DNA of 48,878 nt from Bacteroidota bacterium. Lineage in GTDB: Bacteria; Bacteroidota; Bacteroidia; UKL13-3. The notes under the pieces were generated by a model that had not been told where the DNA came from, made no database searches, and saw only the letters and a list, made by a program, of their open reading frames with translations. The DNA is taken from contig CANKQY010000010.1 in assembly GCA_947485745.1 (NCBI GenBank), forward strand, positions 1-48,878, read 5' to 3'. This document shows, piece by piece, positions 28,220 to 38,760 of this stretch. The first letter of the stretch is position 1. Every line of letters starts with the position of its first letter. A program made the translations under genes and the position numbers.

Positions 28220-28645
28220 ATGGCAGAAAAACAGAAAATAGTATACATTACCAGAAGAGAACGATTTAATGCGGCGCATAAATTGTATAATAAAAATTGG
28301 ACTGAAGCGGAGAATGAAGCATTCTTTGGCAAATGTTCCAATAAATATTACCATGGTCATAATTTTGAGTTATTTGTAACCATCAAAGGTGTTGCCAACG
28401 TGGAAACGGGTATGGTAATGGATTTGAAGAAGTTGAAGCTTATCATCAAAGATTCGGTTACCGAAAAGTTGGATCATAAGAATCTCAATGAAGATGTTGA
28501 TTTCCTCAAGGACATGATGCCATCGATTGAAAATATTGTGGTTGCCATCTGGGAAATAATTGAGCCCCAGATTGAAAATGGCAAATTACACTGCATCAAA
28601 TTGATTGAAACCGAAAACAATTTCGTCGAATATTTCGGGGAATAG
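28220..28645 (+). CDS. queD: 6-pyruvoyl-tetrahydropterin synthase / QueD family enzyme
   Basis: 141 aa from ATG 28220. Zinc ligands are H20 (NAAHKL), H45 and H47 (YYHGHNF). C39 (GKCSN) is the catalytic cysteine. DHKNLNED and VETGMVMDLKKLK match the family. The product could be queuosine-pathway QueD (6-carboxy-tetrahydropterin) or a PTPS-type enzyme; the long loop between H20 and C39 looks more like PTPS, so the symbol is tentative. The start was moved from an upstream TTG because that codon lies in the promoter -7 box. A hairpin repeat array begins 4 bp after the stop. Confidence 0.85.
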   Translation: MAEKQKIVYITRRERFNAAHKLYNKNWTEAENEAFFGKCSNKYYHGHNFELFVTIKGVANVETGMVMDLKKLKLIIKDSVTEKLDHKNLNEDVDFLKDMMPSIENIVVAIWEIIEPQIENGKLHCIKLIETENNFVEYFGE

Positions 28646-28648
28646 TAG

Positions 28649-29287
28649 GGGCGAAAAATCTTTCGCCCTTTTGCGTTACCCGGATGTTTCTTAAATACGG
28701 TGGTTTACCGGCATGATTCGCTTCCTTAGGGAGAGGGCGAAAAATCTTTCGCCCTTTTGCGTTACCCGGATGTTTCTTAAATACGGTGGTTGACCGGCAT
28801 GATATGCTTCCTTAGGGAGAGGGCGAAAAATCTTTCGCCCTTTTGCGTTACCCGGATGTTTCTTAAATACGGCAGCGTACCGGCATGATTCGCTTCCTTA
28901 GGGAGAGGGCGAAAGATTTTTCGCCCTTACGCGTTACCCGGATGTTTCTTATATACGGCAGTGTACCGGCATGATTTGCTTCCTTAGGGAGAGGGCGAAA
29001 GATTTTTCGCCCTTACGTGCGGTTTACCGGCATGATTCGCTTCCTTAGGGAGAGGGCGAAAGATTTTTCGCCCTTACGTGCGGTTTACCGGCATGATTTG
29101 CTTCCTTAGGGAGAGGTCGAAAGATTTTTCGCCCTTACGTGAGGGTGGAAGGGAAATTTGCTTGGGAGGAAAGTTTTTCGCCCTTACGTGTGGTGTACCG
29201 GCATGATATGCTTCTTTAGGGAGAGGGCGTCCGCCAGCCAGCGGATTCGCCCTTACGTGCGGGTGGAGGGGAGATTTGCTTGGGAGA
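28649..29287. repeat. Tandem array of hairpin-bearing repeat units (about 640 bp)
   Basis: Four 86-bp units (28649, 28735, 28821, 28907) are followed by two 61-bp units (28993, 29054) that lack the GTTACCCGGATGTTTC part, then three more divergent units to 29287. Every full unit begins with the hairpin GGGCGAAA-n4-TTTCGCCC and ends with CTTCCTTAGGGAGA; most carry TACCGGCATGAT. In the last unit the hairpin loop is replaced by a nested palindrome, TCCGCCAGCCAGCGGA. No ORF is conserved across units (the frame over 29158-29340 is an accident). The array fills the gap between queD and hldD. Confidence 0.9.
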
Positions 29288-29294
29288 AAAATAT

Positions 29295-29326
29295 TTCGGC
29301 TAAGCGCGAAAATCTCCTTACTTTCG
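29295..29326 (+). promoter_or_regulatory. Candidate promoter of hldD
   Basis: TTCG (29295-29298), 20 bp, TACTTTCG (29319-29326). Both boxes have one C for T. It lies immediately after the repeat array, with a leader of about 10 nt to the hldD ATG. Confidence 0.4.
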
Positions 29327-29342
29327 TTTATTATTTATAATT

Positions 29343-30311
29343 ATGATTGTAATAACCGGAGCCGAGGGTTTTATTGGTAGCTGTTTGGTTGCATGTTTAA
29401 ATGCCGACAATTTTAACGACCTAATTTTGGTGGATGATTTTGGCGGTGTTGTTGGGAGAGAGAAAAATCTTATAGGCAAAAAATATACTGCAAAGGTAGA
29501 GCGTATGCAGTTTTTTGAATGGATGAGTAAGAATGCCCACGATGTTCAATTCGTATTTCATATAGGTGCTAGAACCGATACCAGTGAGAGGGATGAGGCT
29601 ATTTTTAAAGAGTTAAATGTAGATTTTAGCAAGGATTTATTTAAATATTGCACGCAAGAAGGTATTCCTCTGGTTTATGCTTCTAGCGCTGCTACATACG
29701 GTGAGGGAGAATTTGGGTACATAGATGATGAGGCCCAGCTGCCCAGTTTAAATCCGATGAATCCTTATGGCCGATCCAAAAATGATTTTGATAAATGGGT
29801 TTTGGAGCAAGAACAACAACCTTACTTTTGGGCCGGATTAAAGTTCTTCAATGTATATGGTCCGAATGAATACCACAAAGGCCGCATGGCAAGTGTTATC
29901 ATGCATGCATACCATCAAATAAAACAAAAGGGTGAGGTAAATTTATTTCAAAGTCATAAACCTGAGTTTAAAGATGGCGATCAAATGAGGGATTTTGTTT
30001 ATGTAAAGGACCTATGTAATGTATGTTTGTTTTTGATGCACCATCGTAAAAACAGTGGCATTTATAATTTAGGTTCAGGCAAAGCTAGGACATGGAACGA
30101 CCTAGCAACTGGCATATTTTCTGCATTGAAACTACCGGTAAAAATAAATTATATTCCCATTCCGACAGACATTAGGAATTCTTATCAATATTTTACGGAA
30201 GCCGACATGCAAAAAATTACCGCCATTGGGTATGTCCAGCCTTTTACAACTTTGGAGAATGGTATTCAAGATTACGTAAGCAATTACCTTGAATTAAATG
30301 CAATTTATTAA
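29343..30311 (+). CDS. hldD: ADP-L-glycero-D-manno-heptose 6-epimerase
   Basis: An extended short-chain dehydrogenase that makes the heptose precursor for lipopolysaccharide inner core. 322 aa. NAD(P)-binding GAEGFIG (6-12), ASSAATYGEGEFGY, catalytic YGRSK, and GLKFFNVYGPNEYHKGRMAS are the HldD/RfaD signature set, which separates it from other sugar epimerases. The kinase gene starts 9 bp after its stop, at TTG 30321. Confidence 0.93.
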   Translation: MIVITGAEGFIGSCLVACLNADNFNDLILVDDFGGVVGREKNLIGKKYTAKVERMQFFEWMSKNAHDVQFVFHIGARTDTSERDEAIFKELNVDFSKDLFKYCTQEGIPLVYASSAATYGEGEFGYIDDEAQLPSLNPMNPYGRSKNDFDKWVLEQEQQPYFWAGLKFFNVYGPNEYHKGRMASVIMHAYHQIKQKGEVNLFQSHKPEFKDGDQMRDFVYVKDLCNVCLFLMHHRKNSGIYNLGSGKARTWNDLATGIFSALKLPVKINYIPIPTDIRNSYQYFTEADMQKITAIGYVQPFTTLENGIQDYVSNYLELNAIY

Positions 30312-38651: not shown

Positions 38652-38752
38652 CCCCTTCGACAGGCTCACCCCTTCGACAGGCTCACCCCTTCGACAGGCT
38701 CAGGGTGACGCTTTAGACCAACCCATTCGACAAGCTCAGGGTGACGCTTGAG
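38652..38752. repeat. Short direct-repeat cluster between leuS and the AI-2E gene
   Basis: CCCCTTCGACAGGCTCA occurs three times back to back (38652, 38669, 38686), each 17 bp. The third copy runs into GGGTGACGCTTTAGACCA. A fourth, diverged copy (ATTCGACAAGCTCA) is followed by the same GGGTGACGCTT with GAGACCA. A CTTCGACAGGCTCAGGGTGA-type sequence is, to my knowledge, a common interspersed repeat in Bacteroidota genomes. Here a partial unit has expanded in tandem. No gene lies in this 125-bp gap. Confidence 0.85.
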
Positions 38753-38760
38753 ACCAAGGA

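Follow-up and report, generated by a model that had tools for sequence, protein, structure and literature searches.

A tandem hairpin array between queD and hldD of a Bacteroidota bacterium as a probable REP cluster of a RAYT system

The gap between a queD-like and an hldD-like gene of a Bacteroidota bacterium is filled by short hairpins repeated in tandem, and in this study we asked what these hairpins are, how they came to lie there and whether they serve the genes on either side. The window, i.e. the whole stretch of DNA that was analysed, comprises 48,878 nucleotides (contig CANKQY010000010.1 of assembly GCA_947485745.1). The evidence presented here makes it highly probable that the array is a locally amplified cluster of REPs belonging to a RAYT/REP system (REPtron, REPIN), with RAYT subclass 2.4 (group 4) as the closest described class.

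Ten hairpin sites occupy the gap (Table 1): six have the exact form GGGCGAAA-N4-TTTCGCCC, one carries a single stem mismatch, two are worn and one has a long loop. The exact hairpins start at 28649, 28735, 28821, 28907, 28993 and 29054, that is, at successive distances of 86, 86, 86, 86 and 61 nt, and a further 61 nt leads to the mismatched hairpin at 29115. Tandem Repeats Finder recovers both periods, 86 (4.3 copies, score 606) and 61 (4.6 copies, score 350). The first-pass annotation had described a tandem array of 86- and 61-bp hairpin units differing by 25 bp; both the array and the 25-nt difference between unit types are real, and the right edge lies at a worn remnant near 29301, beyond the 29287 at which that annotation had ended. 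The REP unit consists of a 5' GTAG tag directly followed by GGGCGAAA-AATC-TTTCGCCC, a stem with the loop AATC, and when folded as single-stranded DNA the first hairpin of the array reaches -9.1 kcal/mol (z -5.0). A CRISPR would have identical repeats with unique spacers; here the spacers copy one another, in agreement with the earlier judgement that the array is not a CRISPR. An Rfam scan of the window at gathering scores returned two tRNAs only. To the right of the array, the 41-nt leader of hldD, from array end to ATG, is identical between the source genome and its sister species (G011), and a stretch of it, TCTCCTTACTTTCGTT, is also present in three relatives that lack the array (L026-L028). 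Elsewhere in the window, a second tandem repeat (38652-38757) is built of copies of CCCCTTCGACAGGCTCA and ACCCATTCGACAAGCTCAGGGTGACG.

Table 1. Features of the queD-hldD region, in coordinates of the window.
Feature	Position	Strand	Details
queD-like gene (6-pyruvoyl tetrahydropterin synthase family)	28220..28645	+	ORF; PF01242 E 7e-33; stop TAG 28643-28645
REP 1	28645..28668	+	GTAG tag 28645-28648 (G in common with queD stop codon) + GGGCGAAAAATCTTTCGCCC
REP 2	28735..28754	+	forward polarity, AATC loop, decayed tag (GAGA / TTTT)
REP 3	28821..28840	+	forward polarity, decayed tag
REP 4	28907..28930	-	reverse polarity, GATT loop, right-hand tag TTAC (= GTAA)
REP 5	28993..29016	-	reverse polarity, TTAC tag
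REP 6	29054..29077	-	reverse polarity, TTAC tag
REP 7	29115..29138	-	single stem mismatch (GGTCGAAA), TTAC tag
REP 8	29164..29187	-	left arm worn, right arm and TTAC tag intact, 2 mismatches
REP 9	29225..29256	-	long-loop GGGCG-TCCGCCAGCCAGCGGA-TTCGCCC; hairpin 29225-29252, inner palindrome 29230-29245, TTAC tag
REP 10	29282..29301	not assigned	worn remnant, worn counterpart in G011
Four 86-bp units	28649..28992		20-nt hairpin + 66-nt linker related to REPIN spacer elsewhere
Two 61-bp units	28993..29114		without 25 bp of linker
hldD leader	29302..29342	+	directly upstream of hldD
hldD-like gene (NAD-dependent epimerase family)	29343..30311	+	ATG 29343

The loop GATT is the reverse complement of the loop AATC. 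A change from one to the other therefore means that the hairpin was inverted, and not that the loop changed independently under a kept stem, so the proposal that such loop changes betray selection or copying on structure does not hold. The tag follows the same polarity. Among 65 exact-core hairpins from the fetched loci of the source genome and the sister species (contig-end duplicates included, tag taken as GTAN), a tag confined to the 5' side accompanies 18 forward loops and two reverse loops, and one confined to the 3' side accompanies 25 reverse loops and no forward loop. Of the 45 hairpins with a one-sided tag, 43 thus have it on the side that matches their loop polarity, as in the one-ended tag of GTAG REPs; the other 20 have a symmetric loop, tags on both sides or none. 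Because loop polarity tracks the tag side, units 1-3 and 4-7 of the window are the same REP in opposite orientations, set in otherwise parallel units. Such a flip can be seen between species at the C1 locus of the source genome and its counterpart on C93 of the sister, where the third hairpin is inverted and the flanks are little changed. In other genomes, searched with a pattern that placed no constraint on the loop and with one-sided defined as lacking CTA on the 3' side, 89 one-sided tags comprised 27 with AATC and 3 with GATT, and TAG was preceded by G in 181 of 191 matches. Polarity was weaker in viral contigs (23 AATC versus 12 GATT; n = 47).

The hairpin also lies at other loci of the source genome. 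A scan of its assembly (G000; 2.75 Mb, 139 contigs) with the pattern GGGCGAAA-N2..30-TTCGCCC yielded 49 matches compared to none for a reversed-pattern control, which excludes chance. Five or six of these matches are duplicates arising from contig overlaps, leaving approximately 43-44 distinct exact hairpins; once the overlapping contig ends C5/C75, C6/C17 and C12/C52 are merged, each pair being a single locus, 12 distinct array loci result. They sit between mechanically called ORFs, and the hairpins are in this sense dispersed, extragenic and multi-copy, as GTAG REPs are, at a modest copy number; more than 100 REPs per genome are called usual in the abstract of PMC2817692. The long-loop form stands alone at two further sites, C41 and C74, and the second palindrome that had been noticed nested in the loop of the last window unit is this recurring long-loop form of the REP. 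One locus, assembled twice at the starts of C12 and C52 (L047, L053), differs in unit number across the overlap, consistent either with a unit number that varies in the population or with a difference in assembly, and unit numbers in this short-contig assembly may be imperfect.

At several loci the hairpins are arranged as inverted pairs. Pairs spaced by 78-79 nt with a related spacer occur at C1, C12b, C28 (repeatedly), C79 and C111, as well as in the sister species; the C1 pair is 70-83% identical to the other copies, and three of the copies each form a single long hairpin when folded (z -7.4, -8.2 and -9.5). The genome therefore holds dispersed inverted REP pairs with a spacer, the arrangement that defines a REPIN. 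The window linker (66 nt; C10:28821-28930) is 73% like the C1 REPIN, but a pair of window units folds as two separate hairpins instead of one long REPIN hairpin, the order is three forward and then four reverse hairpins, and several tags have decayed. What lies in the window is probably a degraded tandem derivative of REPINs and not a set of clean ones.

A REP family of this kind calls for a RAYT (REP-associated tyrosine transposase), and a gene that we infer to be the cognate one is encoded in the source genome: a 184-aa ORF at C12:15848-16402, directly upstream of cluster C12b. It contains the motifs NHVH and YIMNNP, with W followed by H, and matches the NCBIfam profile REP_Tyr_transpos (NF047646) at E 2.6e-13 and 50 bits, below the 80-bit cut-off, and Pfam Y1_Tnp at 24.8 bits against a cut-off of 23; its similarity to the E. 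coli TnpA-REP structure (4ER8) is weak (E 0.12). The first REP is tagged GTAA, and the stop codon TAA of the gene falls within this tag; the 350 nt 5' of the gene contain no REP core. The sister species has an 80% identical orthologue, with WQ, DHVH and YIMDNP, whose stop TGA lies in a GTGA tag with a REP immediately 3'. Between the two species the RAYT gene has a dN/dS of 0.34, compared to 0.06 for queD and the compared part of hldD, which suggests that it is under purifying selection, weaker than that on the neighbours of the array. A genome scan with PF01797 (E 0.001) had listed no member in the source genome; the reading of the hairpins as orphan REPs that followed from it was overturned by the RAYT ORF beside the C12 cluster and its profile matches. 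The first-pass annotation had raised a REP-type array as one possibility and had named a RAYT gene as the thing to look for; that possibility is supported by dispersed tagged hairpins and by a RAYT gene that has REPs directly 3' of it in both species.

Both genomes contain further genes of this type. A second RAYT of the source genome (L310, C81:1026-1538), 33% identical to the first, adjoins another palindrome, AAACGCGATTCATCGCGTTT, which is present there in three copies with GTAA-type tags and is absent from the window. The second RAYT of the sister species (L309, C38:305-772) is accompanied by palindromes of the form GGACA(R)GTCGCGAC(Y)TGTCC; the sister's equivalent of the C28 array, whose left flank had no match in the source genome, is about 1.4 kb away. 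A Y1 transposase on C151 of the sister (L075) was rejected as a candidate, the stretch read around it having no GGGCGAAA hairpin.

The finding of a RAYT gene bears on whether mobile elements need be invoked at all. Tandem periods of 86 and 61, and a unit number that differs between species and even between the overlapping contigs C12 and C52, are what neutral local duplication unrelated to mobile elements would produce. Such a process does not account for a hairpin and REPIN-like pairs dispersed to other loci, for a polar tag, or for a position directly 3' of a RAYT gene, and we regard it as very improbable as the whole explanation. In the RAYT/REP reading, by comparison, the RAYT protein, an HUH single-strand nuclease (C12:15848-16402), would recognise the 5' tag (GTAG or GTAR) together with the GGGCGAAA hairpin in single-stranded DNA and would have carried REPs, in many cases paired in inverted orientation as REPINs of approximately 107 bp, into intergenic sites, frequently beside stop codons.

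Comparison with relatives would place this movement in time. In the sister species, whose flanks of the queD-hldD locus are 92-94% identical to those of the source genome, the gap viewed from the queD side contains four hairpins (one mismatched) spaced by 86, 59 and 59 nt, as well as one worn. Of the 12 array loci, 10 hold REPs in this species too: nine have orthologous arrays with common flanks, at C28 on the right flank only, and at the tenth, metG on C19, a long-loop REP directly follows the stop codon. The remaining two, C75b and C79, had no counterpart among the fetched stretches of the sister genome, which is 81% complete. With REPs already at these 10 loci, no recent transposition was seen. 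An orthologous array in a separately assembled species, together with related arrays elsewhere, also answers the concern that the array might be an assembly artefact.

Beyond this species pair, a loose form of the hairpin pattern occurs in four of 19 genomes of the genus, and the 20-nt form was matched in the source genome (49) and the sister species (16) and was absent from the other 17 genus genomes searched; within the whole class, 16 of 395 genomes, the source genome included, carry the strict pattern. All five other genomes in which queD and hldD are adjacent (L025, L026, L027, L028 and L030) have a repeat-free gap, and at four further matched loci queD is not followed by hldD. Across 41 genomes compared, similarity continues past the end of queD only in the source genome and its sister, and the gene to the left of the C1 array ends without a hairpin in 11 relatives (90 bases viewed). 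REP movement would accordingly date to the ancestor of the source and sister species, most copies having since stayed put, and unit number and hairpin orientation would have been altered later and locally by recombination or slippage between palindromes. The suggestion that the array grew in two phases is supported in part by the spacings of 86, 59 and 59 in the sister; judging from these spacings, the 86-bp unit has probably either multiplied in the source lineage or contracted in the sister.

Where the REPs sit also raises the question of function. At eight of the 12 loci (mechanical ORFs, contigs merged) the distance between a hairpin and the stop codon of an adjoining ORF is 0-3 nt; in the window, REP 1 touches the stop codon of queD, and about 40 bp separate the end of the array from hldD. 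These positions, and the strength of the stems, would suit a role in RNA, in which hairpins at the 3' end of the queD mRNA terminate transcription or protect the transcript and thereby insulate hldD. We consider such a role unlikely. A simple consensus scan for terminator-like sites (a G+C-rich stem followed by a T run) found none, compared to a mean of 1.9 in shuffled sequence, which speaks against the earlier idea of a transcription barrier; five relatives do without the array; and stem decay is tolerated in REPs 7, 8 and 10. Contact with stop codons, moreover, is a property described for GTAG REPs, whose ends often supply the stop codon TAG according to the passages of PMC3733652 on these repeats, and needs no function.

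E. coli REP clusters bind gyrase, IHF and Pol I. The hairpins could by analogy be BIME-type protein-binding sites selected for chromosome structure, and binding sites for several proteins are mentioned in the abstract of PMC2817692. The 20-nt hairpin is, however, present in only two genomes of the genus, and this alternative has very little probability in our judgement. None of the roles raised in the first-pass annotation (transcription barrier, gyrase or IHF site, RNA-stabilising element) gained support from this analysis. We argue instead that the array is a tolerated mobile cluster, because several stems have decayed and because it is absent in relatives. Its consequence for gene function at the queD-hldD locus is probably small.

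The stop-codon contacts may instead reflect target choice. In metG of the source genome, a REP lies exactly where relatives end in GTAR: 11 of 16 genus relatives end in GTAR without a REP in the bases viewed (11 of 17 if the sister species, which ends in GTGA, is included). That relatives have GTAR but no REP suggests, as a working hypothesis from one locus, that the tetranucleotide predates the insertion.

The hairpin and its RAYT extend well beyond this genus. In the named genome collection the tagged hairpin was found in at least 120 stretches, which belong to many phyla as judged by record titles. When 40 of these hairpin-bearing genomes were chosen and searched with the RAYT of the source genome, 31 gave a match. 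Among the 10 best-scoring RAYTs outside the source and sister genomes, in five the exact hairpin sits within or next to the gene (L311, L312, L316, L324 and L329), in four there is a near variant (L283, L313, L314 and L315) and in one another palindrome (L287); other palindromes predominate among RAYTs of lower similarity, although the exact hairpin recurs at L317 and L325. In a tree of 50 rows, from which 10 of 60 sequences had been dropped for being shorter than 140 aa (four of these with a hairpin in the locus), all nine rows with GGGCGAAA-N4-TTTCGCCC fall in one 15-row branch (support 90/86), which also contains two near-variant rows and four without the hairpin. The hairpin label requires three changes on this tree, and 31 of 500 shuffles were equally clustered. 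Since 23 of the 50 rows come from genomes chosen for having the hairpin, the tree supports a pairing of RAYT and REP without proving it, and indicates that REP sequence tends to follow RAYT branch. The evidence goes against a broader link to any Y1 transposase: the GGGCGAA core was found at one (L220) of the 30 best PF01797 loci in the same 40 genomes, and at none of nine from relatives.

Tagged stems also lie within RAYT genes. They occur in 28 of 58 RAYT genes (L281-L340), compared to seven of 140 other ORFs and none of 290 codon shuffles, and 31 of 37 such stems are positioned 8-49 codons past the HUH motif. REPs inside RAYT genes have already been described for subclass 2.4, and we therefore claim no novelty for them. 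Separately, 44 stretches of IMG/VR contigs contain the tagged hairpin (L237-L280), in multiple copies on several of the contigs; these contigs could be vectors or miscalled bacterial DNA.

Taking the tree, the metG site and the flipped hairpins together, we tentatively offer a wider possibility, though one we would not favour over its negation: that a single RAYT branch has kept its specificity for GTAG and GGGCGAAA in numerous phyla and moves together with its REP, that insertion would occur 3' of an existing GTAR, making stop codons of the form xxG-TAR natural targets, and that hairpins might subsequently flip in place, the loop turning toward the side that keeps its tag. The constancy of one hairpin across phyla and the in-place flips may be new; a literature text search for the literal string GTAGGGGCG gave, among the matches listed, unrelated titles. 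The link, across a broad span of bacteria, between a RAYT branch and a single hairpin sequence makes a RAYT-REP recognition code testable, and the sister-species pair, together with relatives whose sites are empty, provides a clean case for the birth, turnover and decay of a REP cluster.

Among known systems, the GTAG REPs of Di Nocera et al. (2013, PMC3733652) are, as far as their description there extends, alike in the 20-nt hairpin with an 8-bp stem, the GTAG at one end, head-head dimers, tandem groups that include flanking DNA, sites downstream of genes and tag-derived stop codons. The tag of the present family is GTAN in many copies, not strictly GTAG, and this comparison is one of descriptions rather than of consensus sequences. 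In the lists given in parts of that paper, GTAG repeats are assigned to Proteobacteria, Cyanobacteria, Chloroflexi and PVC, and Bacteroidetes are named only for CGTC repeats. As reportedly described by Bertels and Rainey in 2011, REPINs are inverted REP pairs with a spacer, the whole pair folding into a single long hairpin. Other loci of the source genome share this architecture and fold, with a spacer here of approximately 58-66 nt, and the window array differs from it, probably as a decayed tandem derivative. RAYT subclass 2.4, or group 4, is characterised in sections of Quentin et al. (2018, PMC6006769) by the motifs NH[IFV]H, WQ and YIxNNP, and by REPs inside RAYT genes, which are predominant though not universal, with long or double-foot REPs described as well. 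The present system resembles that account in its HUH and YIMNNP-type motifs, in three G-C pairs at the base of the stem, in double-foot forms in other genomes and in REPs within the RAYT genes of its tree neighbours. The fit of the motifs is partial, W being followed by H in the source genome and the sister having DHVH and YIMDNP, and neither species has a REP inside its RAYT gene, the REP starting directly at the stop codon instead. On these sequence grounds, the system would be placed in subclass 2.4 or in a close relative of it.
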